A stretch of DNA of 34,672 nt from Gammaproteobacteria bacterium. Lineage in GTDB: Bacteria > Pseudomonadota > Gammaproteobacteria > Pseudomonadales > Pseudohongiellaceae. Positions 19,770 through 34,633 of the stretch are shown here, one piece after another. The notes below the pieces were generated by a model that saw only the letters and a program-made list of their open reading frames with translations, did not search any database and was not told where the DNA came from. The stretch is from contig JAHEHN010000027.1 in assembly GCA_024644515.1 (NCBI GenBank), positions 1 to 34,672 of the forward strand. Reading direction: 5' to 3'. Position 1 is the first letter of the stretch, and each line of letters opens with the position of its first letter. Made by a program: the position numbers and the translations under genes.

Positions 19770-20252
19770 ATGGCCAAAGCAAAAAAAAATAAAACTTCTG
19801 ACAACACCATTGTCGTTAACATGAAAGCCAGACATGACTATTTTCTGGGTGACAGTTACGAGGCTGGCATTGCGCTTCTCGGTTGGGAGGTCAAAAGCCT
19901 GCGCGAGAAGAAAGTCCAGTTGGTGGATAGTCACGTCATCATAAAAAATGGCGAAGCCTACTTGCTGGGTGCCCAGATAAACCCTCTGGACACCGCCAGC
20001 AGCCATATTATTGCCGATCCCACGCGTACCCGAAAATTGCTGTTACATGCTAAAGAGCTGGCCAGGATTTTTGCCGCGATTCAGCAAAAAGGGAATACCT
20101 GCGTGTGCACCAAGATGTACTGGAAAAATCATTTGGTGAAATGTGAGATTGTTCTGGCCAAGGGCAAACAGGATCACGACAAACGCGCCAGCCTCAAGGA
20201 AAGAGAATGGAACCTGGAGAAGCAGCGGACGGTAAGAACGGGCAACCGCTGA
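19770..20252 (+). CDS. smpB: SsrA-binding protein SmpB
   Basis: Binds tmRNA and brings it to stalled ribosomes for trans-translation. The 160-residue protein shows the OB-fold core [57 protein letters not shown] and the basic C-terminal tail [17 protein letters not shown] that enters the mRNA channel. The length is normal. The start is the ATG at 19770; the message is probably leaderless or nearly so. Its RNA partner ssrA is also in this window, 12.6 kb downstream, with an accessory gene block between them. Confidence 0.98.
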
Positions 20253-20291: not shown

Positions 20292-21161
20292 CTATTGCCC
20301 GGCTAATTCGCGGTAAAGACCTGGCAGGAAGCGTCCCGGATCACCCCAGGTGGCGTCAAACTCTGCAGTAGGATTGGCCGCAAGCACAGCATCCAGATCC
20401 ATATCCCGGGAAATCATTTGGCTTACCCGGCCCCTCACAACCTTGACCATATCAATACAGGCCTGAACATCTGCGCGACCGGTCACTATGCCATTGCCGG
20501 CAATAAACCGCGTATTGTTATCAGCAAGTGCCAGCGCCATTTCATTGCCCTCGACAAAACCCTCAATAGATCCACCGGCGAGCACCGGGTAGCGTTCCGG
20601 ACTATAGAGATCACCCAGGTGAATGACATTGGACTGCTGATAATGAACCATGAGATTGCCGAGGGAATGGGCCGGTTGCGCATGAATAATCGTTACCGTT
20701 TCTTCATCAAAGTAAAGTGTCATGCTGGATCCATCTGACAGCACAATATCCGGCCAGGCAGCTTCCGGGGCTGGCGGTCCGCCACGTTGCCCCGCCATGA
20801 GCACGCGGCGCACTTCTTCATGGGCGATGATGACTGCGCCACTCTCGCCAAAACCTGCATTGCCATCGGTGTGATCAGGATGTACATGCCCATTGATCAG
20901 ATACTCGACCTCGCCACCGGAAATTTCCCGAACCATGCCACGAATAGCATCAGCCAGTTCCGGACGTTTACTGTCTACCATGAGAGCGCGTCCATCCCCT
21001 GCCAGTACACTGATATTGGCATAGCCGCCACCGCTCAGCATCCAGACATTGCCGCTGACATGCTCCATCTGCAGCTCAGTCTGGGCAGATAAAGCCAGTG
21101 GAAAAAGACAACAAAAGTGGACGCTTAGCCAGCGTGCTTTGCTCAATAAGTAAGCCATCAT
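20292..21161 (-). CDS. Exported metallo-beta-lactamase-fold hydrolase
   Basis: A 289-residue MBL-superfamily protein with an N-terminal signal peptide (cleavage near LSA-Q, about residue 26). The zinc motif HVHPDH spans 92-97 and is followed by His165 (AHSLGN) and Asp184 (HLGDLYS). The last metal-ligand histidine expected in a GHG motif is replaced by asparagine (IAGNG, Asn222), so the second zinc site may be altered. The substrate is unknown; relatives include SoxH-like and lactonase-like proteins. It is the last gene of the ankyrin-cytochrome-DUF1552-MBL operon, 45 nt after the DUF1552 gene. Two adjacent ATGs (21161, 21158) are possible starts. Confidence 0.88.
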   Translation of the reverse strand: MMAYLLSKARWLSVHFCCLFPLALSAQTELQMEHVSGNVWMLSGGGYANISVLAGDGRALMVDSKRPELADAIRGMVREISGGEVEYLINGHVHPDHTDGNAGFGESGAVIIAHEEVRRVLMAGQRGGPPAPEAAWPDIVLSDGSSMTLYFDEETVTIIHAQPAHSLGNLMVHYQQSNVIHLGDLYSPERYPVLAGGSIEGFVEGNEMALALADNNTRFIAGNGIVTGRADVQACIDMVKVVRGRVSQMISRDMDLDAVLAANPTAEFDATWGDPGRFLPGLYRELAGQ

Positions 21162-21205
21162 TGGGTCGTACCCTGTCTATTTAACTCGGAGTTAGTTGTG
21201 ATTGA

Positions 21206-22546
21206 TCAGACTTCCAGTCGACCCGTGCTGTTACCAAAGGATTCCCGGTGTATGCCGAACTTATCCATTAGTCCCAGATACAGATTTGCCAGCGGTGTAT
21301 GGTCTGCAACCTTCAGGTGTCGACCACCTTCAAGCATGCCACTGGCACCGCCTACCAGCAGAATAGGCAGCGGATCAAAATTGTGCTCATTGGCATCACT
21401 CATGCTGCTGCCATACAGGATCATGGAATGGTCGAGCAGGCTGCCATCGCCATCAGGTGTGGCCGCCAGCTTGTCAAAGAAACCCTTGAGCACACTGATA
21501 TGATAATTATTAAGGACGGCAAACTGGTCCTTGTTTTTCTGTTCATTGGAATGATGCGAGGCATTATGAAAACCTTCATTGACGCCGCTACGTGGGTAAC
21601 GCACATTGCTGCCTTCCCCCGCCATCATCAGCGAAGAGATGCGGGTAATGTCAGACTTGTAAGCCAGCACCTGCAGGTCAAACATGAGATTTATATGATT
21701 TTCAAAGCCGCTGGGAATGCCAGCAGGCGCATCAGGAACCTCGAGGGATTCCGCCGACAACCTGGCATCTATCAGGGCGACACGACGCTCAATTTCCCGC
21801 ACCTCTTCCAGGTATTCATTTAACCTGACCTGGTCAGCGCTGGGCAGCTTGAGGTTCAGGCTGGCGACATCTTCACGAATAGAGTCCAGGAGACTTGCCG
21901 ACTGTCGTCGTCTTTCCCTGCGCTCAGTATCAGTAGTGCCATCCCCAAACAGTCTTTCAAAAACCAGTTGCGGGTTATTTTCCATCGGTAGTGCAAGTGA
22001 CGGGGTTTTCCAGGACAGGGAGGAGCGATAGGAACAGGTGAAGTTGACGTCGCCACAAGTGTTATTGGAAGGCTCTATGGCCAGTTCAACTGATGGTAAT
22101 GGTGTGTCCTGACCCAATTCATCTGCCATCACCTGATCAATGGATTTACCAACAAAAGCGCGATCACCGGCGACTGGATGGGCCGCAGTAAGAAAGGCGG
22201 CGGCAGCACGCTCATGGTTCTGGGCACCGCCACTATCTTCCCCTTCTTCCGGTCCAACCGGGGCATTCGCCAGACCGCTAATAATAGTTATTAGCTTGCG
22301 GTAATCTTCGAGGGGTTTCAGGATCGGGGTAAAGGCAAAATCTTTTCCGGTTTTTTCAGGTGTCCAGTACGCCATCGTGGCGCCATGGGGAATATAAATA
22401 TAGCCCATGCGCGGAGCAGGATTGGCAGCGGTCTGGGCAAGTGCGGTATGTGCCGGAATCATGGAATCCAGCAAGGGTAAAGCAATGGCAGTTCCCGCGC
22501 CCCTTAACAGGGTGCGGCGTGACAGGTGCTTTTTACTAATAAACAT
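21206..22546 (-). CDS. Tat-exported DUF1552 protein
   Basis: A 446-residue member of DUF1552, a family of unknown function first abundant in planctomycetes and usually encoded beside DUF1592-type cytochromes. The N-terminus carries a twin-arginine signal (HLSRRTLLRGAG then a hydrophobic stretch ending AHTALAQ), so it is folded before export. Family-typical segments are GYIYIPHGATMAYWTP, SMILYGSSMSDANEH and PILLVGGASG, resembling the DUF1501/sulfatase-like superfamily. I chose the ATG at 22546 (GGAG 6 nt upstream) over a TTG six codons earlier. It sits 76 nt after the DUF1592 gene in the same direction. Catalytic residues are not established. Confidence 0.9.
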   Translation of the reverse strand: MFISKKHLSRRTLLRGAGTAIALPLLDSMIPAHTALAQTAANPAPRMGYIYIPHGATMAYWTPEKTGKDFAFTPILKPLEDYRKLITIISGLANAPVGPEEGEDSGGAQNHERAAAAFLTAAHPVAGDRAFVGKSIDQVMADELGQDTPLPSVELAIEPSNNTCGDVNFTCSYRSSLSWKTPSLALPMENNPQLVFERLFGDGTTDTERRERRRQSASLLDSIREDVASLNLKLPSADQVRLNEYLEEVREIERRVALIDARLSAESLEVPDAPAGIPSGFENHINLMFDLQVLAYKSDITRISSLMMAGEGSNVRYPRSGVNEGFHNASHHSNEQKNKDQFAVLNNYHISVLKGFFDKLAATPDGDGSLLDHSMILYGSSMSDANEHNFDPLPILLVGGASGMLEGGRHLKVADHTPLANLYLGLMDKFGIHRESFGNSTGRLEV

Positions 22547-22622
22547 GTGACTCTCCGGAATCAATCAATTGTCGCCGTGCTTCCTGCATTTCCCGATAAA
22601 GATTACTGCCAATACTATAAAC

Positions 22623-24935
22623 CTAGCGCCCGGCAGTCTCCAGCGCGCTTTCAATTTTCGTGCGTCGGGTAAAGGCATCACTCAGGGCGATTTCCTGCAC
22701 CAGGGCACTAAAACGGAAATCGCTATCTTCTGCTCGCTGCACAACCTCGCGCACTGATGGCATATCGTAATACTCAACTTTCCTGCCCAGCGCATAGGTC
22801 ATCAGTTTTTCGATAAAATTTTCCACGAACAGGTCGCTACGTGCCATCAGGACATCGAACAGTCCTTCCGGCCCATCAATATCGGTACCATCCCAGAAAG
22901 TTGCTGCGGTATTAACCGGGATGCCGCTGGTCTGCTCGCGGAACTTGCCGATAGCATCAAAGTTTTCCAACGCAAAGCCAATGGGATCCATCATGTTGTG
23001 ACAGGACGCGCAGGCGGGATCAATACGGTGTTGTTCAAGACGTTGGCGCGGGGTCGTCGGAGCTTCTCCAGCCGTGGCAGTTTCTTCGAGATTGGTTTCC
23101 ACTCCCGGTGGCGGTGGTGGCGGTGGCGTTCCCAGCAGATTCTCCATTATCCAGGCTCCTCGAATTACCGGTGAGGTGCGATTTGGTGCCGAAGTGATAG
23201 TGAGTATGCTGCTGTGCCCCAACAATCCATGTCGTCCGGTTCCTGCCAAATTCACTTTGCGAAAATGGCTGCCACGAATATTGGGAATACCGTAATGTCG
23301 CGCCAGTCTCTCGTTTACGAAACTATAATCAGCAGTAAGCAGTTCAATCACCGGGCGATCTTCAAGGATTACTGATTCCAGTAACAATTCGGTCTCACGG
23401 CGCATGGCTACTTGCAGGCTGCCATCAAAATCCTGTGCCGTTGGATTCACACTATTTAGTTGTGACAGGGACAACCATGAGGCCGCAAAATTTTTCACCA
23501 GTGAATCCGCTTTGGGATCCCTAAGCATTCTTTGTATTTGCTGCTCCTGAACCTTGCTGTCTGCAAGAGCGCCTGACTCCGCCGATGCCAGCAATTCTTC
23601 ATCAGGAATACTGCTCCAGATAAAAAATGACAATCTTGATGCCAGTTCATAAGGCTGGAGCTCGTAGTTCTGTCCGACATTGATTCCTTCGGGCTCGCTT
23701 TCAAAGCGGAAAACAAACATCGGATCAACGAGAATACGTGCCAGGGCATATTGAATGCCCGTATCAAAATCCCGCAGTTCGCGACCATCCCGATAAAAAG
23801 CCAACAGCGTGTCCATGGCGCGTTCACTCACCGGCCGCCGGTAAGCCTTGTAAGCCAGGTTTTCCAGTATCTGCCGGGCGCAGGGTTCTTCTGCTGAAAC
23901 GCTGTCAGGTGTGCAGCTGAAAATTGCCTGACGACTGGGGGTGTCTCCAGGTCCGGAGGCATTAAGTGGCCCATTTATGGATACCGCACGCACCGAAGTA
24001 CTGTTCGACCAGACCGTATGCAGATCATCCACGCCGCGGGGTGACTGGGTTTGCACAAAAGCCGCTTCTATTTTGTGAGGCCCGGCGCTTATGCCCAGTC
24101 TTATCTGACTGGAGGCTCCTGCAGGAAATAAAGCAACGCGTTCGCCATTGATAACCAGCTCAACAGGATCTTCTATACCGACAGGGTCGAGGGAGAAAGC
24201 GGCGTTGGCACCGGTGCGACTGATCCTGAATTCATATTCTGCATCCAGCGGGAAAACATGCTCGAAGGCAGCACCCCCTCGGGTGCCCAGTGTAATACCT
24301 TCCAGATGTGCTGATTGATCCTGGCGGTCTGCGCGATAGGTATCGGTTCTGGCACTGGCTGTCATATCACCCACAGCGAGACGGCTGACCTTGTTCGCAG
24401 CAGAAATATAGGACTGCATCAATGCCGGAGAGACACTCAAGGCACTGGCGATATTATCGAATCCCTCGCTGGAGTTGTCCGCAGGAAACATCTCGGTCGC
24501 GTCTATCGGCAAGGCCAGAAGATCACGAATGGCGTTCTGGTATTCAGTGCGATTCATGCGATGTAACAATGGTGCACCGGTATTGGGACTATCACTCCAG
24601 GCACTATCAATGGCATGAGCCATATCAGCGACAAATGCCTGCACTTCATTATTCCCTGGTCGTTCTTTTCCCAGCGGCGGCATCATGCCGGCCTTGAGTT
24701 TCAGTAGCACCTTTTCCCAGGTTTCTGCATCACTTAACAGATCGTTTGTATCCAGCAAGTCAAAGGCAAGACCACCAGCGAAATCATCAAAGTTATGACA
24801 TTCACTGCAATAGTCTTCAAGCAGTTGCAGATGCTCAGGTTCAATGGCATCGGACTGTCCATAGAGCGTATTGGTCAGCCCCAAAAACATTAGCGCAATA
24901 GCCGGCAAGCGGGCCTTTTTCATTTTAGTGCTCAT
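22623..24935 (-). CDS. Planctomycete-type diheme cytochrome (DUF1587/1595/1592/1588/1585)
   Basis: A 770-residue exported protein with a signal peptide (about 1-26) and two c-type heme sites: CSECH at 43-47 and CASCH at 642-646. The domains are recognisable in order: an N-terminal cytochrome module, DUF1587 (RMNRTEYQNAIRDLLAL), a beta-rich carbohydrate-binding-like region (about 200-320), DUF1595 (YKAYRRPVSERAMDTLL), DUF1592 (LSFFIWSSIPDEELLASAE), DUF1588 (TSPVIRGAWIMENLLGT followed by seven prolines) and DUF1585 (LMTYALGRKVEYYDMPS). The function is unknown, presumably periplasmic electron transfer or oxidation. Its start overlaps the ankyrin gene by 11 nt (or lies 1 nt beyond it if the ATG at 24923 is used), so the two are translationally coupled. 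Confidence 0.92.
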   Translation of the reverse strand: MSTKMKKARLPAIALMFLGLTNTLYGQSDAIEPEHLQLLEDYCSECHNFDDFAGGLAFDLLDTNDLLSDAETWEKVLLKLKAGMMPPLGKERPGNNEVQAFVADMAHAIDSAWSDSPNTGAPLLHRMNRTEYQNAIRDLLALPIDATEMFPADNSSEGFDNIASALSVSPALMQSYISAANKVSRLAVGDMTASARTDTYRADRQDQSAHLEGITLGTRGGAAFEHVFPLDAEYEFRISRTGANAAFSLDPVGIEDPVELVINGERVALFPAGASSQIRLGISAGPHKIEAAFVQTQSPRGVDDLHTVWSNSTSVRAVSINGPLNASGPGDTPSRQAIFSCTPDSVSAEEPCARQILENLAYKAYRRPVSERAMDTLLAFYRDGRELRDFDTGIQYALARILVDPMFVFRFESEPEGINVGQNYELQPYELASRLSFFIWSSIPDEELLASAESGALADSKVQEQQIQRMLRDPKADSLVKNFAASWLSLSQLNSVNPTAQDFDGSLQVAMRRETELLLESVILEDRPVIELLTADYSFVNERLARHYGIPNIRGSHFRKVNLAGTGRHGLLGHSSILTITSAPNRTSPVIRGAWIMENLLGTPPPPPPPGVETNLEETATAGEAPTTPRQRLEQHRIDPACASCHNMMDPIGFALENFDAIGKFREQTSGIPVNTAATFWDGTDIDGPEGLFDVLMARSDLFVENFIEKLMTYALGRKVEYYDMPSVREVVQRAEDSDFRFSALVQEIALSDAFTRRTKIESALETAGR

Positions 24936-26517
24936 AGGCTATGCCGGCCTCGTCCATCAGCGCCTTTAACAGGGCAATAGTTTCAGGTTTTTGTTCTGCG
25001 CCTACAGCCGCAAGGAAAACACCTTCCGCCCAACGCAGGGCACTGCGACCAACAGCGTCCTGGGCATCCAGCTTTGCGCCCTCATCAGCAAGATATCGAA
25101 TTATGTCATTGGAACCCCGATTGGCAGCGCCAAGCAATGCCGTCAATCCCATGGAGTTGCTGGCATTAACATCCCCACCCAGGGCGACGTTGAGCTTGAC
25201 GGCCTCCAGTGAGGCTTCTTCAGACACGGTATAGGTTTGCGCAACAGTCCAGTTAACGCCAGCGGCAGCCATCAGAGCGGTGGTCCCTTCGTAGGTAGTG
25301 ATATGAGGATCAGCATCATACTCCAGCAGCATAGTCATGGCGGGGATATCGCCAGCCAGTGAAGCTCTGATAAACGGGGTCTGCCCGCTCATGTCGACCC
25401 AGGACACATCGTTCAGTGAGTAGAGCCACTTTTTTTCTGGCGGCCATTCCTTGGTGCGGGCATTCACATCGGCCCCTGCATCAAGCAAGCGTTTAATCAT
25501 GGCAAGAACAGGTTTTCTGTTAACACGGTTATCCTGGGGGTCATCTTCCAGGTCACTGTTCATGTCCAGATTACGATAATCCACGGCAGCAAACAGCGGC
25601 GTGCGGCCATAAAAATCATCAACATTCACCAGCGCTCCGGAATCCAGCAATAGCTCAGCGACATCAAGCTGATTATTTAACAGCGCCATGAGCAAGGGGG
25701 TAATCTCATTGGCCTCGCTGAGTTCAAGGTCAGCGCCATTTTCAACAAGCAGTCTTGCAGCATCGAACTTGCCATCACGGGCGGCATATAACAGCGGTGT
25801 CATTCCACCTTTCGCATCATATCGCTCACCACGGTGGGGAACGCCGCTACGGTTGATACCCACGCCTTCCGAGCCACAACCGGTGCCCTTGCAGGGAGGA
25901 ATATAGGCGGGAACAGGTCCCAGGCGGGTACGTGCATCAACATTCGCCCCATGCCGAATGAGCAAATCAATAACAACCACATGCCCTTCCCGAACAGCAA
26001 TCATTAATGCCGTTTGCTGAAATTCAGGGTCCCGGTAATCAACCAGAGCACCGCTGGCCAAAAGCAGATTGACGACTTCAGATTTGCCAGTATGTGCTGC
26101 CGTCATCAATATGGTTTCACCGTTTTCCGACAGGGTATTGGGATCAGCCCCTGCGTTGAGCAGCCAACTGACTATTTTTTTATTACCGTTCTGGGCTGCC
26201 AGAAACAGGGGCGAGATACCATTGCGATTCAGCACAAGGGGATCTGCACCGGCTTCCATTAACAGTGAAACCGATTCCTCTTGATCGCGCAGCACAGCCC
26301 AGTGCAGGGCTGTCGTACCATCATTGAGACTGCTGTTCACCTCTATGCCCTGTTCAAGCAACCGCGTAATTTCATCTATCTGTCCTTTTTCAGCCGCACG
26401 AGCGAGTTGCGCATGAGCACTGACATTGACTGAAAAAATCAAGGACAGGCAGGTGCAAATGACCAGCGCCACTTTAAGTAGGCGTACCCCTGAAAAATAG
26501 TTCACATTACTTCCCAA
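24925..26517 (-). CDS. Exported ankyrin-repeat protein
   Basis: A 530-residue protein with a signal peptide (cleavage near AHA-Q, residue 36), followed by about 10-11 ankyrin repeats, such as DGTTALHWAVLRDQEES, NGISPLFLAAQNGNKKIV and GMTPLLYAARDGKFDAARLL. Two longer insertions interrupt the array: after repeat 4 (CKGTGCGSEG region) and inside repeat 7. The solenoid is probably a periplasmic binding scaffold; the partner is unknown, and the adjacent cytochrome is a candidate. The start is a TTG at 26517 with a strong GGAGG site at 5-6 nt; an internal GTG at 26505 is an alternative. It is the first gene of the four-gene operon. Confidence 0.9.
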   Translation of the reverse strand: MGSNVNYFSGVRLLKVALVICTCLSLIFSVNVSAHAQLARAAEKGQIDEITRLLEQGIEVNSSLNDGTTALHWAVLRDQEESVSLLMEAGADPLVLNRNGISPLFLAAQNGNKKIVSWLLNAGADPNTLSENGETILMTAAHTGKSEVVNLLLASGALVDYRDPEFQQTALMIAVREGHVVVIDLLIRHGANVDARTRLGPVPAYIPPCKGTGCGSEGVGINRSGVPHRGERYDAKGGMTPLLYAARDGKFDAARLLVENGADLELSEANEITPLLMALLNNQLDVAELLLDSGALVNVDDFYGRTPLFAAVDYRNLDMNSDLEDDPQDNRVNRKPVLAMIKRLLDAGADVNARTKEWPPEKKWLYSLNDVSWVDMSGQTPFIRASLAGDIPAMTMLLEYDADPHITTYEGTTALMAAAGVNWTVAQTYTVSEEASLEAVKLNVALGGDVNASNSMGLTALLGAANRGSNDIIRYLADEGAKLDAQDAVGRSALRWAEGVFLAAVGAEQKPETIALLKALMDEAGIAYEH

Positions 26518-27651: not shown

Positions 27652-29496
27652 TCACTCAGGCGCGATTTCAAACGCAAACAGGGCATTGCCCGGACGACCT
27701 ACAATGCAGCAGTTACCTGACAGCATATAAACCATACCATCTACGACCACCGGCCCTGATGCATCAAAGGATCCGCCCTGGGCTTCTAGGCCATTGATGG
27801 TTTCAAACTGCGGATTACTATCAAAGGTCCACAATACTTTACCGTCCTCAGCGCTGTAGACACGCATGCCACCGTCGGCAGAACCACTAAAGACGGCGCC
27901 GGGAATAGCGGTGACAGCGGCAGATTGCGTGGCGCGACAGCCACGACCCGCCTGACAGAGTAAATCCTGGGGAGGTGCAACCCATACCCCCTGACCACTG
28001 GCAAGCTCAATACCGTGAACACCGCCCGAGTCTGGATTACCGTACCCCCCAACACCAACATAGGCCATACCGTCCGCGACTGACATGCCCCACCAACCAC
28101 CGGAAGCACTGCCCGGGGCAACATAATATTGCCAGACAAGTGCCCCGTTATTATTCGGATCAAGTGCATGGGCCATGCCGGACTTCTGCGGAATGACAAG
28201 TAATTCCCTGCCATCAGATGTTGAAGTAAGGATGGGTGAGGCAGAAAAATCCACATCCGGGCCAAGTTCAATGGGACAGTTGGCGCTATTACCATCACCG
28301 TTACGACTGCAGCCGGTTATAAAGGCATCATTCGGCGTCATCTGATTCACCCAGACTATTTCGCCAGTTTCGAGATCCATGGCAATAACCGCATCCGAGG
28401 TAATTGGTGCCGGATCGCCATAGGCATTACCGGTAGCGGTATAAAGCAGGCCCCGGTCTGGATCAATAGTCGGCGCATTCCAGATACCCGCGCCGGATGG
28501 ACCATATAGCTGAACACCGGTATCACTGAGTCCGCGCGGCTGAGGCTCATCCATGGTGTAGGTTTTCCAGAGTATCTGCCCGCTGTTGGCATCAAGCTTG
28601 GTAATACTGCCGCGAAAAGTACAACAGGGATAATCAGGCCCGGAGGAGTTGGTTTCTTCCACTACTCCTGCAGAGGGTACGTATAGATTGCCTTCGAACA
28701 GCGTGACCGAACCCGTACCGCGTACACCGGGATGATCTTCTACCCTGGATACCCAGATTTCTTCTCCATTCTGCGCATTCACCGCATACACATTACCGCG
28801 CAGATCCTGAAAAAACACGGCATAGCCATCACCACCTTCAGGCAGGTTTATCGGGCCCACAGACAAGGCACTGCGCACGCCATTGCGCGGCAGGTAGGTC
28901 CAGTAAGTACAACCACTTTTTGCATCAAGGGAATAGATGGCTCCAGCCTTGTTGCCAACAAACAGGCGACCAGAGACCACTGCCGGTTGGGCACGGGGCT
29001 GATCTTCCCCCGGCAGTCCAAACACCCACTTCAGGCGTAAATTGTGAATATTGTCTGCACTCATTCCGGCATCCAGCGCGGCGCGTGCATTACGATGATC
29101 ACTGCCCCAGCCATTCCAGGCCGGCGCCAATGCGGGATTTCCCATGCGCGGATTATCTGCACACAGATTGGTGGTCATGGTCAGATTCAATTCAGACATG
29201 GGACTACCGCTAATATATTCTGAGAGTGACTGCATCTGCCTATTGGTCAGGCCAGACGCCTGAATCCGCATGACTCCCTGAGTCAGTACACGATAGATAG
29301 TTTCCGGGGGCTGCTCTGCCAGTACCGATCTTGCCGGTGCCCGAAGCGCCTCATTAGCCGGCGCCTCATGACATGCTGCACAACGGGCGTTATATAATTC
29401 AGCACTATCCTGCGCCATTACCAACATTGGCAAAAACAGCAGTGGACTCAGCAAAAGCCATTCAAACAGACTCTCAAAAATACGAAAACTTTTCAT
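27652..29496 (-). CDS. Cytochrome c-PQQ beta-propeller dehydrogenase (polyvinyl-alcohol-dehydrogenase-like)
   Basis: A 614-residue exported quinoprotein. After a signal peptide (about 1-28), an N-terminal cytochrome c domain carries CAACH (39-43) and a likely axial Met76 (GVMRIQ). From about 130 on, PQQ/YWTD-type blades repeat, as in GNKAGAIYSLDAKSGCTYWT and GNVYAVNAQNGEEIWV. Two vicinal cysteine pairs, C291-C292 (DYPCCTF) and C596-C597 (GNCCIVG), are notable. An N-terminal heme fused to a PQQ propeller is the layout of polyvinyl alcohol dehydrogenase. The real substrate is unknown; PQQ binding is predicted from the fold. An AGAGGGGG site precedes the ATG. It diverges from the DUF6152 gene. 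Confidence 0.88.
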   Translation of the reverse strand: MKSFRIFESLFEWLLLSPLLFLPMLVMAQDSAELYNARCAACHEAPANEALRAPARSVLAEQPPETIYRVLTQGVMRIQASGLTNRQMQSLSEYISGSPMSELNLTMTTNLCADNPRMGNPALAPAWNGWGSDHRNARAALDAGMSADNIHNLRLKWVFGLPGEDQPRAQPAVVSGRLFVGNKAGAIYSLDAKSGCTYWTYLPRNGVRSALSVGPINLPEGGDGYAVFFQDLRGNVYAVNAQNGEEIWVSRVEDHPGVRGTGSVTLFEGNLYVPSAGVVEETNSSGPDYPCCTFRGSITKLDANSGQILWKTYTMDEPQPRGLSDTGVQLYGPSGAGIWNAPTIDPDRGLLYTATGNAYGDPAPITSDAVIAMDLETGEIVWVNQMTPNDAFITGCSRNGDGNSANCPIELGPDVDFSASPILTSTSDGRELLVIPQKSGMAHALDPNNNGALVWQYYVAPGSASGGWWGMSVADGMAYVGVGGYGNPDSGGVHGIELASGQGVWVAPPQDLLCQAGRGCRATQSAAVTAIPGAVFSGSADGGMRVYSAEDGKVLWTFDSNPQFETINGLEAQGGSFDASGPVVVDGMVYMLSGNCCIVGRPGNALFAFEIAPE

Positions 29497-29710
29497 TTTT
29501 CCCCCTCTGATCAGCGAACCAGGGTGCCGCTTAATCCCGATACTATTCCTAACTAATTAATCCCGTAACCGTACCAAAGCTTACCAGACCACTTTACCTA
29601 ATTGTTGCGTTTTTTGCGTTTTGCAGCGGAGAGGCTTCATGCTATTCTCATTCGCTCATATTCCCACAACCATAAAGCAGGCTGATATTACGGGAAGCTC
29701 AGGGGAAAAA

Positions 29711-30115
29711 ATGAAAAAAATTACTGCATTGTTTGCTGCTGCACTGCTTTTTATAACTGCAGGTGCCGCGCTTGGTCATCATTCCTTTGCCATGTTTGAC
29801 CAGACTACCAAGGTTGAATTCACCGGCATTGTTGCCGAAGTACAATGGACCAATCCACATGTCTGGATCATGGTTGATGTACCTTCTGATGATGGCACTG
29901 ACATAAGTTGGGGAGTTGAGTTCACCAGCAAGGTACATCTGACCCGTCGTGGCTTTTCTCCGGATTTATTTTCTATCGGGGATGAAGTGACCTTTTCTGT
30001 CAGCCCCTATGCTGATGGTAGTCCCGGCGGCAGATTCTTCTGGGTACAACTGGCTAACGGTACATATTATTGCGATGTCGGTGCCGCTCAACGTGTTTGT
30101 CAGGAAAGGAACTAA
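29711..30115 (+). CDS. Exported DUF6152 family protein
   Basis: A 134-residue protein with a signal peptide (about 1-22, ending GAALG). The mature start HHSFAMFDQTTKVEFTG and the segment WTNPHVWIMVDV are typical of DUF6152, a small beta-rich periplasmic family of unknown function. The frame is open from 29621, but the ATG at 29711 has a strong AGGGGA site 5 nt upstream and gives the signal peptide directly. Two cysteines near the C-terminus (YYCDVG, RVCQERN) could form a disulfide. It is followed 60 nt later by the next gene on the same strand, and the two probably form one operon. Confidence 0.85.
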   Translation: MKKITALFAAALLFITAGAALGHHSFAMFDQTTKVEFTGIVAEVQWTNPHVWIMVDVPSDDGTDISWGVEFTSKVHLTRRGFSPDLFSIGDEVTFSVSPYADGSPGGRFFWVQLANGTYYCDVGAAQRVCQERN

Positions 30116-30175
30116 ACCCCGATAGCGGGTAAACCCATTCAAGAAAAATCATAACCAATCAGCCGAAGCCTTCTT

Positions 30176-30976
30176 ATGAAATATTTCTCTTTGATACGCA
30201 CTACCTGTTTTAGCTACTTTGTAATTTTCCTGAGCGCCCAGCTTTTCGGTGTTGCTGCAAATGCCCAGGACGATGTTGTTTATCCAGCCAATGCCGAAAA
30301 CGTCAGTTATGCCGGACTCGACCAGTTACCTGACTGGCGCGGGCTCTGGTTTCCTGCTTTTGGCCAGGTTGGCGGTGGCGATCCTGTTCTGATTGGCGAA
30401 GCCAAAACACTCTGGGAAATGCATCAGGCCAGACTGGCGGCGGACCCCAATTATGAAGTCCCGGAAACTGCCAATAACTGCGAACCTGACGGCTTTCCCT
30501 ACATAATGAATTTTCCCTACAGCCTGGAGTTTCTGTTTACGCCAGGAAAAATCACTGTGATTCAGGAAGCACTGATGCAGGTACGCCGGATTTTTACTGA
30601 CGGCCGTCCCATGCCTTCGCGCGAGGAACTTGATCCAAACTATTTTGGCTATTCACGTGGGCACTGGGAAGGCGATACTCTCGTGGTTACTACCATCGGC
30701 ACTCAACCAGGTCAGCGCCTTGGTCGTCCGGGCATTACCAACAGTGACCAGCTTACCGTTACCGAACGAATTTACCTGGACCCTGAAAATGAAGATCAGC
30801 TCCATCTCGACTTCACCTTCGAAGATCCAAAAGTACTCGCCGAACCCTGGCACCTGACCTATACCTATAGTCGTGACCGCACCTGGGAACAGATCGAATA
30901 TATTTGTTCACAGAACAATCGGCATATTCTCGATGCTGATGGTCAGACCCTGCCACCGGAAGAACTGCATAGATAA
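30176..30976 (+). CDS. Exported protein of unknown function (GHWEGDTLVV family)
   Basis: A 266-residue protein with a signal peptide (about 1-30, ending ANAQ). I cannot name its family. The segment YFGYSRGHWEGDTLVVTTIG is shared by many secreted proteins that I know from gene neighbourhoods with DUF6152; a later stretch HLDFTFEDPKVLAEPWHLTY also fits that group. Two cysteines (NNCEPDG, EYICSQN) could pair. The upstream context (DUF6152, PQQ dehydrogenase) suggests work in the same extracytoplasmic pathway. A strong bidirectional terminator follows it. The function remains open. Confidence 0.75.
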   Translation: MKYFSLIRTTCFSYFVIFLSAQLFGVAANAQDDVVYPANAENVSYAGLDQLPDWRGLWFPAFGQVGGGDPVLIGEAKTLWEMHQARLAADPNYEVPETANNCEPDGFPYIMNFPYSLEFLFTPGKITVIQEALMQVRRIFTDGRPMPSREELDPNYFGYSRGHWEGDTLVVTTIGTQPGQRLGRPGITNSDQLTVTERIYLDPENEDQLHLDFTFEDPKVLAEPWHLTYTYSRDRTWEQIEYICSQNNRHILDADGQTLPPEELHR

Positions 30977-30990
30977 TTAATCACCGAACA

Positions 30991-31022
30991 AAAAAAAGCC
31001 CGATTAAAACCGGGCTTTTTTT
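30991..31022. terminator. Bidirectional intrinsic terminator between two convergent genes
   Basis: AAAAAAAGCCCG (30991-31002) and CGGGCTTTTTTT (31011-31022) form a 12-bp stem with an 8-nt loop, with a U-tract on both strands. It lies 14 nt after the plus-strand gene's stop and 18 nt past the minus-strand tannase-family stop, so it serves both. Confidence 0.85.
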
Positions 31023-31040
31023 ATACCAGTATTAAAAGCA

Positions 31041-32726
31041 CTACTCGACGCAGGAAAAATTCTCCGCACTATTAATATCACCCCGACCGTTATAACGCGG
31101 CCACTCAGGATAATGACATACCGGACGCGTACGACCGGCTGTCGCCTGATTGGCATCACTGGCCACCAGCTCACCAGGGGCCTGACCTCTTTCCACCCAG
31201 GCTTCCAGTGCATCAAGGCTTGAAAGACGTGCGTTAAATACTCCGGTGACATGGCCCATGCCCGGAATGGTATAGAACTTCACAAAATCAGACAGCGCCT
31301 CTTCATCATAACGCTGCTGCAATCGTTCCCAGTACTGGATCGAAGAGTACACAGGAATAAAATCATCCACCCTGCCATGAAAATAAATCAGCTTGCCACC
31401 ATTGTCCCGAAAGCGATCAATGTTGACGCTATTGGCACTGATCAACTCTACCAGTTCACCGATGCGCCCCGCATACTGTCCCGGATCAAAATCATTCATG
31501 GTATCCAGTGTCAGGTCCTGGGCGATGGCATAACGGGGTGTGGCATCACCGGGTCCATACTGAAGCGCCTGCTGCGGCCCTTCCCGTCCCAGATTGGTGC
31601 TGCCGCCGTCCATAAATGTGGAGCCCTCAAAAGGGGTCCACTTCGGAAACACAGAGGTCAGCTCATCATCTGCAAAGACACTGAAGCCAAGATCATAGGG
31701 AGTATCCATGACATTAAGCGCTTCAATCTGCGCATCAGACAAACAACGGTCACTGGTATCCGCACCATTGTCACAGCGAACCGGATTGTCCGAAGTGGTC
31801 AGCCTGAAATCTTCAGTCTCTTCCAGACAGGCTTCAACATTACTGATGATGCCATCTTCTGCCCGATCCAGATCATCACAGGCGGCATACACCGCTCCCA
31901 CATAACTCTCAATTTTTGCCGGACTGATCCAGCTGTCACCATTGTTGGCCAACAGAGCCCGGGCATAGCGATTGGCTGAAAGATGCAGCATCACCACGTT
32001 ATGTGCCGGATAGCCTGCTACGGCGCCATGGTAATCATCAGGATAACGCTGCACTGCATCGAATGCCTCATGTCCACCCTGGGAGCCCCCGATAATATAA
32101 TTGTACTGGGATGCCGTGCCATAGCGGGCCTGAACCAGATGCATGGCCACATCATGGGTTTTCTTGATTTGCTCATGACCGTAATTTCTCAACGCTTCCT
32201 CATACAGGAAGAAGCTGCCATCAAAACCGGGTAAACGGGATTTGTGTCCTGAATCACTGCCAAGGGTCACATAACCCCGGGCCAGTGGCGTTTCTTCTGA
32301 AGCCGGCTGCTTGGCATAATGTCCCAGACCGGTAATGACACGACCATTGAAGCCGCCACCACCCAATTGCAGGGATTTACCATTCCAGTCACTGGGCAGG
32401 TTCACCTGGAACTCTATATCCGGAGCGCTATACGTCACGGGATGGATATTACCTTTCACCTGACAGAATTCGCCGTTGCTATTATCCCGGGCATTGGCAC
32501 GCACCAGTTCGGTGGCAAAAATGGTCGCGCCTGTCGTGCCAAGACCAATGCCTGATGCCGGTATTTTTAAACCGTTGAGCGCGGCGCACGCTTGTGCCGC
32601 GTTCAGACTGGCCAGTTTGGGGCGCCAGGAAACATCCTGGGCCAAAGCCCCGCTGCCAAGGCAAATACTGGCTACCACTGATACCAGGCCTTTGATTATT
32701 ATTGATTTTTTAGCAGGTGTTGCCAT
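31041..32726 (-). CDS. Tannase/feruloyl-esterase family hydrolase, exported
   Basis: A 561-residue alpha/beta hydrolase with a signal peptide (cleavage near ALA-Q, about residue 29). The nucleophile elbow IIGGSQGGHEAF places Ser215; the acid is Asp454 or Asp455 (FHGRVDDFIP) and the base His492 (PGMGHV). Family members normally have cysteines next to the Ser and His (the CS-D-HC disulfide); here those positions are Gly214 and Val493. Several other cysteines (Cys88, 283, 300, 318, 328) could stabilise the lid. It likely cleaves an ester of an aromatic or phenolic compound, but the substrate is unknown. The ATG at 32726 has a GGGGGA site; an upstream frame to 32756 was not used. Confidence 0.87.
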   Translation of the reverse strand: MATPAKKSIIIKGLVSVVASICLGSGALAQDVSWRPKLASLNAAQACAALNGLKIPASGIGLGTTGATIFATELVRANARDNSNGEFCQVKGNIHPVTYSAPDIEFQVNLPSDWNGKSLQLGGGGFNGRVITGLGHYAKQPASEETPLARGYVTLGSDSGHKSRLPGFDGSFFLYEEALRNYGHEQIKKTHDVAMHLVQARYGTASQYNYIIGGSQGGHEAFDAVQRYPDDYHGAVAGYPAHNVVMLHLSANRYARALLANNGDSWISPAKIESYVGAVYAACDDLDRAEDGIISNVEACLEETEDFRLTTSDNPVRCDNGADTSDRCLSDAQIEALNVMDTPYDLGFSVFADDELTSVFPKWTPFEGSTFMDGGSTNLGREGPQQALQYGPGDATPRYAIAQDLTLDTMNDFDPGQYAGRIGELVELISANSVNIDRFRDNGGKLIYFHGRVDDFIPVYSSIQYWERLQQRYDEEALSDFVKFYTIPGMGHVTGVFNARLSSLDALEAWVERGQAPGELVASDANQATAGRTRPVCHYPEWPRYNGRGDINSAENFSCVE

Positions 32727-32789
32727 GGATTCCCCCTTCTCCAGATAAATAGTCAACAGGCAGCAATATTCCTGTTTTTTGCACCCCGT

Positions 32790-32840: not shown

Positions 32841-32947
32841 GTCCTTTCTTCTGGGGGTGATTTGGATTCGACGCCGGTACTAAAACCCAGGGTGCATGTC
32901 GAGAGGGTAGTAACTCTCGTAAAAAAATTGCTGCAACTTTTTTAGTT

Positions 32948-32980
32948 GCCAACGACGATACGTACGCTCTAGCCGCTTAA
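32948..32980 (+). other. tmRNA-encoded proteolysis tag ORF
   Basis: Codons GCC AAC GAC GAT ACG TAC GCT CTA GCC GCT TAA encode ANDDTYALAA, added after the alanine carried by tmRNA. The LAA end recognised by ClpXP is kept. E. coli uses ANDENYALAA and Pseudomonas ANDDNYALAA, so the Thr is a one-residue variant. Confidence 0.93.
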
Positions 32981-33198
32981 AGACCTTAAGTTAGGCTAGC
33001 GATTGCCAAGGGATGCCTGTAAACCGGAAGCAATTGTCATATAGAACAGGATCGACCCAACAGTGCGTTCGCCGCCGAGGGTCTAAACATTTAGCGAACT
33101 CGCCCTAAACACCCTGCCAGTCGGGTCGTGATGGGCTAACTCAATAGATATGGCTAAACATGTAGACCTCTAGGCAGAGGGCTGACGGACGCGGGTTC

Positions 33199-33218
33199 AA
33201 TTCCCGCCGCCTCCACCA
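33199..33218 (+). other. Probable attachment site (attL) at the ssrA 3' end
   Basis: The last 20 nt of ssrA, covering the T-loop, acceptor arm and CCA, are the standard crossover target of P4-type integrases. The integrase next door makes integration here likely. A matching repeat (attR) is expected beyond the right edge and could not be checked; the exact core length is unknown. Confidence 0.55.
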
Positions 33219-33385: not shown

Positions 33386-34633
33386 ATGGCCCGTACTACC
33401 AAACCCCTGACCAACACGGAAATCAGCAACGCCAAGCCCAGGAACAAGGTATATACCCTATCTGATGGTGGGGGCCTGCAGCTGCGTATCATGCCCAACG
33501 GCTCCAAAACCTGGCTACTGGACTATTACAGGCCCTATACCAAAGCCCGCACCTGTATCAGCTTTGGTGCTTTCCCAGCCCTTTCCCTGGCTGCCGCCCG
33601 CCGCAAGCGCGATGAGACGAAAGCCCTCCTGGCGCAAGGCATAGACCCCAAAGAGCACCGCGAAGAGGAGAATCTGAAGAACGAGGCCGCACACAGCAAT
33701 ACCCTGAAGAATGTGGCCCGGCAATGGCTGGAGGTCAAGAAAACCAAGGTTACCCCCGATCATGCAGAGGACTCCTGGCGGTCACTGGAACTCCACGTAT
33801 TTCCCGCTCTTGGGACTACACCGATACACAAAATAACCGCAATCAAGGCCATTGATACCCTCAAACCCATTGCCGCCAGGGGCAACCTCGAAACCGTCAA
33901 GCGTCTCTGCCAGCGCCTGAATGAAATCATGACCTTTGCCGCCAATACTGGCCTTGTTAGTGCCAATCCGTTGACCGGTATTGGTAAAGCCTTCCAGTCC
34001 CCCGGAAAACAGCATCAACCTACGATTACCCCCGGCCAGCTTCCCGCTTTGATGCGAACCCTGGCCAACGCCAGCATCAGGCGCACCACCCGTTGCCTGA
34101 TCGAATGGCAACTGCATACCATGGTGCGCCCCGGTGAGGCAGCAGGAACGCGCTGGGATGAAATCGACCTGGAAAAGAAGCTCTGGACGATACCCGCAGG
34201 CAGAATGAAGCAAAAACGGTCTCATTCAGTCCCACTATCTCCCCAGGCACTTCAGTTACTGGAACTGATGAAACCTATCAGCGGCAGAAGCGAATTCGTC
34301 TTTCCCTCGGACAGAAACCCCAAAAGCCATACTCACCCCCAGACAGCCAATATGGCGCTGAAGCGGATGGGATTTGGCAAGCAACTGGTTGCGCATGGCT
34401 TAAGAGCGCTTGCCAGCACTACGCTGAATGAACAGGGCTTCGATCCTGAAATCATTGAGGCTGCCCTTGCCCATGTCGGAAAAAATGAAGTCCGCAATGC
34501 CTACAACCGCGCCCAGTATATTGAACGGCGAATCCCCCTCATGAAATGGTGGAGCGAGCATATTGAAAAGGCCGCAACAGGCAACATGAGCATGACAGGC
34601 ACTGCAGCGCTGTCAATAATAGCCAACGGTTAA
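33386..34633 (+). CDS. P4-type tyrosine integrase
   Basis: Site-specific recombinase of 415 residues that would insert and excise the island at ssrA. The N-terminal arm-binding domain (DUF4102-like, about 1-90) shows TLSDGGGLQLRIMPNGSKTW and ISFGAFPALSLAAARRKRDE. A core-binding SAM-like domain covers about 105-205 (LKNVARQWLEVKK). The catalytic domain contains Arg248 (MVRPGEAAGTRW), a lysine near 275-277 (RMKQKRSHSVPLS), His337 and Arg340 (AHGLRALAST), His363 (LAHVGKNEVRNAYNR) and the nucleophile Tyr373. All key residues are intact, so it is probably active. Transcription runs away from ssrA into the island. The C-terminal 20 residues are not conserved-looking. After the stop, 34634-34672 holds nothing recognisable. 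Confidence 0.95.
   Translation: MARTTKPLTNTEISNAKPRNKVYTLSDGGGLQLRIMPNGSKTWLLDYYRPYTKARTCISFGAFPALSLAAARRKRDETKALLAQGIDPKEHREEENLKNEAAHSNTLKNVARQWLEVKKTKVTPDHAEDSWRSLELHVFPALGTTPIHKITAIKAIDTLKPIAARGNLETVKRLCQRLNEIMTFAANTGLVSANPLTGIGKAFQSPGKQHQPTITPGQLPALMRTLANASIRRTTRCLIEWQLHTMVRPGEAAGTRWDEIDLEKKLWTIPAGRMKQKRSHSVPLSPQALQLLELMKPISGRSEFVFPSDRNPKSHTHPQTANMALKRMGFGKQLVAHGLRALASTTLNEQGFDPEIIEAALAHVGKNEVRNAYNRAQYIERRIPLMKWWSEHIEKAATGNMSMTGTAALSIIANG

Follow-up and report, generated by a model that had tools for sequence, protein, structure and literature searches.

A stretch of 34,672 nt (hereafter the window; contig JAHEHN010000027.1, assembly GCA_024644515.1) from a gammaproteobacterium of the family Pseudohongiellaceae carries, side by side on its minus strand, genes for an ankyrin-repeat protein, a diheme cytochrome, a protein of the DUF1552 family and a metallo-beta-lactamase (MBL)-fold protein. 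They represent a single copy of an exported cassette that has been amplified. The cytochrome and DUF1552 genes are its near-obligate core, the ankyrin gene is specific to one cytochrome subtype, and the MBL gene is optional. An earlier note on the same DNA had read the four genes as an operon; they are indeed associated, but what was taken for an operon is one of about 16 copies of a cassette in the genome. The surprise lies in the near-obligate core, the subtype-specific ankyrin and the sixteen-fold amplification, rather than in the operon. The observations of the note hold, whereas its interpretation is supported in part only: the single operon is not upheld, and the role it gave to the MBL protein is doubtful.

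An amplified, exported cassette

The window copy is laid out as follows (lengths in amino acids, aa; ORF, open reading frame).
24925..26517, minus strand: ankyrin-repeat protein of 530 aa starting at TTG; Sec-type signal assigned by eye
22623..24935, minus strand: diheme PSCyt3/PSD2-5 cytochrome, 770 aa, assigned by Pfam profiles
24795..24809, minus strand: codons of the first heme motif of the cytochrome, CSECH, residues 43-47
23952..24365, minus strand: codons of the predicted jelly-roll insert of the cytochrome, model residues 191-328, from a fold search
22998..23012, minus strand: codons of the second heme motif, CASCH, residues 642-646
21206..22546, minus strand: DUF1552 protein (HXXSHH, PF07586) with a Tat-type signal; likely ATG start at 22546, listed ORF from 22564
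22214..22216, minus strand: codon of DUF1552 His117 (452-aa ORF numbering), the sulfatase nucleophile position by spacing
21551..21568, minus strand: codons of the HxxSHH motif (His333, His337, His338)
21383..21385, minus strand: codon of the invariant His394
20292..21161, minus strand: MBL-fold protein of 289 aa; Sec-type signal assigned by eye; Lactamase_B at 37 bits, above cut-off

The assembly (2.71 Mb in 159 contigs, 98% complete) contains 16 DUF1552 matches by profile search, 15 PSD4 cytochrome matches and 79 ankyrin profile matches, the last counted as 18 reading frames. An ankyrin gene or contig-end fragment adjoins 15 of the 16 DUF1552 genes, and the sixteenth copy (L021), with no ankyrin beside it, is cut by a contig end. 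A cytochrome gene directly adjoins 13 (two of these cut) and an MBL gene adjoins 8. Some of the ankyrin and cytochrome genes are likewise cut by contig ends (L012, L013, L015, L020, L022). Fifteen of the 18 ankyrin frames belong to DUF1552 cassettes; of the three others, those on contigs C131 and C11 are close to a contig start (one of the two follows an MBL gene), and the one on C24 is isolated. The paralogues have diverged, with 40-54% identity to the window DUF1552 protein and 38-47% to the window cytochrome.

Amplification extends across the genus. Six sampled genus genomes have 16, 12, 17, 15, 16 and 17 DUF1552 matches (some of the 15 in G003 are partial), and the genomes measure 2.6-3.4 Mb. 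In six further genera of the family the counts are 4, 1, 0, 0, 2 and 0, and six genomes from other families have none above cut-off.

The same genes keep company elsewhere. A scan of named genomes with a pattern derived from the own-genome paralogues matched 411 stretches and yielded 281 relatives, of which the best 80 were kept, giving 79 loci; owing to the origin of the pattern, these over-represent the ankyrin type. Their records are titled as Gammaproteobacteria, other Proteobacteria (one Deltaproteobacteria) and Acidobacteriota lineages. In GC-rich loci, shadow ORFs cause the gene caller to miss genes, and the counts rely on six-frame family hits. The cytochrome gene is directly upstream of DUF1552 in 75 of the 79 loci, and an ankyrin gene is adjacent in 71 (63 downstream, 8 upstream), which contradicts any expectation that the genes would rarely co-occur elsewhere. 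An MBL gene is adjacent in 36. Of the eight loci without ankyrin, most are cut near DUF1552. Where the flanks are long enough (44 loci), the cytochrome is found in 42, the ankyrin in 44, MBL in 26, and all four genes in 26. Relative to the outer flanks, ankyrin frames are about 7 times and MBL frames about 8 times denser near DUF1552. Four contigs of metagenome-assembled genomes titled Bordetella parapertussis or Klebsiella pneumoniae (L065, L076, L100, L102) also carry the cassette; these labels look wrong, the cassette being one of uncultured environmental bacteria.

Gene order is permuted among 100 modules (own genome included): cytochrome-DUF1552-ankyrin occurs in 38, MBL-cytochrome-DUF1552-ankyrin in 25, ankyrin-cytochrome-DUF1552 in 8, and the window order in 5. 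Pairwise distances correlate among the own-genome paralogues (Mantel tests; DUF1552-cytochrome r 0.85, n 11; DUF1552-ankyrin r 0.76, n 13; cytochrome-ankyrin r 0.88, n 8) and at other loci (r 0.73-0.87, n 17-43); the small n of these tests reflects the omission of near-identical rows and partial proteins. Given that paralogue distances co-vary, the cassettes seem to duplicate as units.

Since the scan pattern is skewed to close paralogues, we also read a less biased set, namely all 17 above-cut-off DUF1552 loci outside the genus from the profile searches. Seven of these come from the same family (G006, G007, G010), and L098 and L163 seem to represent a single contig. In 16 of the 17, a PSD cytochrome gene lies next to DUF1552; L164 has none. 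An ankyrin gene adjoins 7 of the 7 loci whose cytochrome is diheme and 796-853 aa long; G006 and G010 supply five of these. An ankyrin adjoins 0 of the 9 with other cytochrome forms within the stretch read (L158 is cut upstream, and L152 and L159 were read little or not at all upstream of the cytochrome); these forms are monoheme proteins of about 555-562 aa (L151, L160), a 628-aa protein (L158) and giants of 1254-2180 aa (L152, L153, L154, L156, L157, L159). Across whole genomes, the carriers of PF07586 (DUF1552) and of PF07631 (the DUF1592 cytochrome) are the same five of 298 other Pseudomonadota, two of the five sharing a genus. Among 273 other Gammaproteobacteria, five have both DUF1552 and the cytochrome, and two more have half-length PSD4 matches only (above cut-off).

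Adjacency elsewhere, co-divergence and genome co-occurrence thus bear out the earlier idea that these genes belong together. Near-obligate pairing is confined to the cytochrome and DUF1552; the ankyrin goes with one subtype, and the MBL is optional. Several observations on gene content weigh against the explanation preferred below. In the own genome, no cytochrome gene adjoins the copies L018 and L019, and that of L011 is 1.4 kb upstream. Scan loci L044, L048 and L058 also lack one, and L067 has no ankyrin although its downstream flank is uncut and extends 10 kb. Own-genome co-divergence with MBL is weaker (r 0.47-0.59, n 7-8; cytochrome-MBL p 0.08). L018, L019, L044, L048 and L058 are all DUF1552-ankyrin pairs without an adjacent cytochrome.

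Within the window, the four ORFs described earlier are present on the minus strand, with their families borne out by Pfam, and both heme motifs were placed correctly, as was the 11-nt ankyrin-cytochrome overlap (24925-24935). The 76-nt gap between the cytochrome and DUF1552 genes holds if DUF1552 begins at the ATG at 22546 (its seventh codon), but shrinks to 58 nt with the listed TTG; the family favours the ATG, as 52 of 59 aligned DUF1552 proteins have Met in that column. The DUF1552-MBL gap is 44 nt rather than 45. GGAGG lies upstream of the ankyrin TTG. The products do appear to be exported, the signals having been assessed by eye and not with a predictor, and the DUF1552 twin arginine is kept in 59/59 aligned family members. 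Promoter-like sites (11 observed against 7.1 in shuffles, standard deviation 2.8) and terminator-like sites (6 against 7.8) are not clearly above chance, so co-transcription of the four genes is inferred from spacing alone. Although these uninformative scans would sit well with four genes adjacent by chance, such an origin is extremely improbable: the arrangement goes beyond chance because it is conserved at other loci, with neighbours retained in 71-75 of 79 despite permuted gene orders, and the genes co-diverge. Chance is contradicted for the cytochrome, DUF1552 and ankyrin genes; the MBL case (36/79) is weaker.

The cytochrome and its DUF1552 partner

By Pfam, and by modelling for the jelly roll, the window cytochrome is ordered as heme, DUF1587, jelly roll, DUF1595, DUF1592, DUF1588 with heme, and DUF1585. 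It contains PSD3, PSD5, PSD4, PSCyt3 and PSD2 in order, with CxxCH in PSCyt3, and so belongs to the PSCyt3/PSD family. Exactly two CxxCH motifs occur in 68/68 aligned cytochromes (68 of 77 candidates entered the alignment), Met85 is kept in 68/68 and Met725 in 65/68. From these residues, both hemes are probably His/Met-ligated, as in electron carriers rather than catalytic hemes.

The window subtype has about 160 residues between DUF1587 and DUF1595, against only about 20 in L143 and L156. In the structural model (pLDDT 88, pTM 0.88), this insert is a jelly roll resembling carbohydrate-binding module (CBM) families 35, 36 and 6, but equally TNF/C1q and Pgp3 folds (Z 7.4-9.2). On the model, the insert may bind carbohydrate; the Pfam search found no CBM family match in the window cytochrome. 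Searching solved structures by sequence with the cytochrome gave nothing convincing (best E 0.55), and the fold search found no solved fold beyond the jelly roll, with the remainder barely covered and possibly of known folds.

Cytochromes with the same PSCyt3/PSD ('planctomycete-specific') domains are reported from freshwater Verrucomicrobia, where PSCyt3 genes usually adjoin a family of unknown genes and have no known function (PMC5615132, available portion). That neighbouring family may be DUF1552. The available portion of that report mentions no ankyrin or MBL partner, unlike the window type, which has the jelly-roll insert and is amplified in a 2.7-Mb gammaproteobacterium.

The DUF1552 protein matches the HXXSHH/DUF1552 profile at 281 bits (cut-off 30) and has the HxxSHH motif. 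In the alignment (59 of 97 proteins), His117, His333, His337 and His394 are kept in 59/59. His117, His333 and His394 are retained even where identity falls to 22-33% (Planctomyces, Sphingobium, Novosphingobium RL4), His117 being present in 9/9 sequences of an alignment with distant members, and the HxxxH spacing for His337 is kept in these distant members by eye. His60 is less general (56/59 relatives) and is absent from the distant members.

The structural model, of moderate confidence (pLDDT 75, pTM 0.80), suggests that DUF1552 probably has an alkaline-phosphatase-superfamily fold. Its best match among phosphodiesterases and sulfatases has Z 17.3 over about 246 residues (root-mean-square deviation 3.5); with Foldseek the best E is 2.4e-4 and TM only about 0.4. 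By sequence, solved structures gave nothing convincing (best E 0.67). A profile comparison with sulfatases, for which nine references from 30 loci passed the filter, was weak (best probability 24%, E 8e-4; others 1-8%) and serves as a hint only. Nine sulfatases have (L/I/M)(T/S/F)G at +8 to +10 after the nucleophile Cys, and 46 of 59 DUF1552 proteins have LS or LT at +8/+9 after His117. Placed by spacing to this LTG-like motif, His117 stands where the superfamily has its catalytic Ser, Thr or Cys. The Asp/Asn metal pair usual after a late strand reads Ser/Met in DUF1552 (by eye, from the weak profile alignment). DUF1552 thus resembles sulfatases and nucleotide pyrophosphatases/phosphodiesterases in predicted fold, but differs in its His at the nucleophile position, four invariant histidines and apparent loss of the Asp ligands. 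From these positions, its metal site would be rebuilt from histidines.

The fold match, together with the prevalence of pyrroloquinoline quinone (PQQ) enzymes as the commonest named neighbours of the cassette, makes it conceivable that DUF1552 is an ordinary sulfatase- or phosphodiesterase-like hydrolase that trims substrates while the cytochrome serves other periplasmic dehydrogenases. We regard this as unlikely, given the histidine at the nucleophile position, the apparently replaced metal pair and the near-obligate pairing of DUF1552 with the cytochrome.

The ankyrin and MBL-fold proteins

Ank_2 scores 210 bits on the window ankyrin (Pfam). Inserts between repeats are conserved in common among the 73 module ankyrins, which therefore form one family. 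The earlier note had cast this protein as a scaffold. That is one option only, since ankyrin proteins whose genes neighbour catalase genes are reported to promote heme loading or trafficking, or catalase activity (PMC9426514, PMC7567364), which makes a role in assembly or heme loading a serious alternative. As with AnkB of Pseudomonas aeruginosa, reported to be periplasmic, and Cj1386 of Campylobacter jejuni, the window ankyrin gene lies beside a heme-protein gene, but its partners are a c-type cytochrome and DUF1552 rather than a catalase. None of the eleven window genes scanned around the cassette is a catalase; the genome was not searched for one. The literature searched held no paper tying DUF1552 to ankyrin.

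It is possible, then, that the ankyrin is a heme- or metal-delivery factor of the AnkB/Cj1386 kind and not the scaffold of a working complex, which would be compatible with the explanation preferred below. Its occurrence with the diheme subtype only (7/7 against 0/9) agrees with delivery. However, heme attachment in c-type cytochromes normally goes through the general Ccm route, and many repeats with conserved inserts fit a docking surface.

The window MBL protein retains six of the seven usual zinc ligands, with Asn at the last, and so lacks the complete two-zinc set (HxHxDH, His, Asp/Cys, His). Among 45 MBL proteins passing a length filter, of which at least one (L065) is not beside a module, 35 keep the three first-site histidines and one, itself not beside a module, has the full seven-ligand set. 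A Tat-like twin arginine is present in 31 of the 45 and absent from the window copy. The closest NCBIfam model is TIGR04559, quinoprotein relay system zinc metallohydrolase 2, which shares a PQQ context. The three MBL proteins scanned reach 72 (window), 61.5 and 60 bits where the cut-off is 280, and have a degenerate zinc site, which places them outside that family. The proposal that the MBL enzyme opens a product is doubtful because of this incomplete zinc site.

Functional reading and genomic context

Some relatives are fused to domains that hint at a substrate class. Among the giant cytochromes, L152 and L159 carry a starch-binding CBM26 and a glucose/sorbosone dehydrogenase (GSDH) domain, L156 and L157 three cellulose-binding CBM2 each, and L153 and L154 Ig- or PKD-type domains (a GSDH match in L153 is below cut-off). 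A gene for a flavoprotein like flavocytochrome c sulphide dehydrogenase lies beside DUF1552 in L156 (6238-7542) and L157 (5959-7257). Two Sphingobium plasmids (of twelve plasmid records) encode, in this order, a monoheme cytochrome, DUF1552, a cytochrome c or c' and a cytochrome b561, and Novosphingobium RL4 likewise has a b561 gene; none has an ankyrin gene in the stretch. A Novosphingobium KACC 22771 plasmid carries cytochrome-DUF1552-ankyrin. One Planctomyces plasmid, our whole sample of Planctomycetota, carries DUF1587, DUF1592 and DUF1552 with a 3-keto-disaccharide hydrolase gene. PQQ enzymes lead the Pfam counts of cassette neighbours (4/83 and 9/127, the latter including the window PQQ protein), followed by DUF6152 (8/127), and each of the six genus genomes has at least 33-51 PQQ-domain matches (matches, not genes). 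With at least 44 also in the sister-genus genome G010, beside the 33-51 of G000-G005, the load of periplasmic-dehydrogenase-like genes is striking.

The fusions, the b561 neighbours, the abundance of PQQ domains and the lack of LPMO_10 together favour, if indirectly, sugar or alcohol oxidation, with the cytochrome passing electrons. They lend partial support to the earlier suggestion that an organic compound is oxidised in the periplasm via the diheme protein, through relatives fused to sugar-dehydrogenase or carbohydrate-binding domains or lying beside b561. The explanation we prefer, which we hold to be about evenly poised between right and wrong, is that the cassette is an amplified periplasmic oxidation and electron-transfer unit, sugar- or alcohol-linked, with DUF1552 and the diheme cytochrome as its core. 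The Tat-exported DUF1552 protein, possibly in complex with its partners, would bind a metal through its four histidines in an alkaline-phosphatase-like pocket and act on a sugar- or alcohol-derived substrate outside the inner membrane. The cytochrome would take the electrons towards the respiratory chain, and the ankyrin protein would dock or help assemble the diheme subtype. The MBL-fold protein would be an optional accessory, likelier a binding protein or one-metal enzyme than a classical two-zinc hydrolase.

A number of points count against this explanation. Other genera of the family have many PQQ matches as well (at least 13-44), yet DUF1552 is rare or absent there, and the two expansions are therefore not tightly linked. 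Cassette neighbours vary, with many singletons, and no single substrate can be derived from the Pfam counts. The jelly-roll insert matches TNF/C1q and Pgp3 folds besides CBMs. In a Teredinibacter relative, a pair of GSDH-like domains showed neither PQQ binding nor glucose oxidation (PMC10916295), and the literature searched yielded no characterisation or biochemistry of DUF1552. LPMO_10, a family of lytic polysaccharide monooxygenases (LPMOs), was found in 0/18 genomes, our own included, in a search that matched 1/14 control genomes.

The last result also bears on a rival reading, by which the cassette, as proposed for Cbp2D of Cellvibrio japonicus and LPMOs, would pass electrons out to an oxygenase or into oxygen activation and not draw them from a substrate. 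An LPMO can be activated by the X183 domain of Cbp2D, a cytochrome domain in a protein that carries DUF1587 and X132 as well (PMC8981238), and Cbp2D plays an important part in C. japonicus growth on insoluble cellulose (PMC12542752); the term 'DUF' is absent from the main text of the latter paper. The giant relatives, moreover, bear cellulose- and starch-binding modules. We nevertheless consider outward transfer quite unlikely here, with LPMO_10 lacking in our genome and 17 relatives (other oxygenase families were not searched). As a model for our own genome, an LPMO donor is disfavoured by the same count.

Cbp2D and the Teredinibacter proteins TERTU_2913 and TERTU_3803 (X183 and X132) resemble the window cytochrome in being exported redox proteins, with DUF1587 (Cbp2D) and a C-terminal CxxCH domain, X132. 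They differ from it in the CBM2 and X158 of Cbp2D, the X122 of the TERTU proteins and the LPMO link. Unlike these donors, the window system has no LPMO_10, no CBM family match and an ankyrin partner. X132 is called uncharacterised in PMC10916295; judging from the DUF1587 annotation and the CxxCH motif, it would be the PSCyt3/PSD core.

The surroundings of the window cassette include a PQQ/cytochrome protein, a DUF6152 protein and a 266-aa protein without a Pfam match (27652-32756). Their gene order is the same in L031, L033 and L034 and rearranged in L035, and a tannase-family gene lies near the cassette in the window, L031 and L033. The 266-aa family (window 30176-30976), without a Pfam or NCBIfam match, occurs near cassettes in 28 of 100 loci, under a clustering that also draws in DUF6152-bearing proteins. 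A family of about 158 aa, also without a Pfam match, is found in 10 loci (for example L016:6297-6764 and L045:12857-13327), directly after the ankyrin gene in those inspected. On the other side, smpB is encoded at 19770-20252. A transfer-messenger RNA (tmRNA) gene (32853-33218, plus strand) is directly followed by a tyrosine integrase (33386-34633, plus strand; NF007246, 530 bits), and a mobile element may sit at ssrA, just right of the cassette region.

A bolder form of the preferred explanation, tentative and on balance doubtful, is that DUF1552 proteins constitute a new class of exported metalloenzymes: histidines would have taken the place of the nucleophile and metal ligands in an alkaline-phosphatase fold, yielding a redox catalyst working only with its own X132/PSCyt3 cytochrome. 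The near-obligate DUF1552-cytochrome pairing, the probable phosphatase-like fold with its histidine site and the ankyrin-marked subtype offer a concrete pair to co-express. If the bolder form is true, DUF1552 would supply the partner so far missing for the unexplained X132 cytochromes found in cellulose degraders and planctomycetes. This genus would then have expanded it, along with a dedicated ankyrin, to a set of substrate-specific periplasmic oxidation units.

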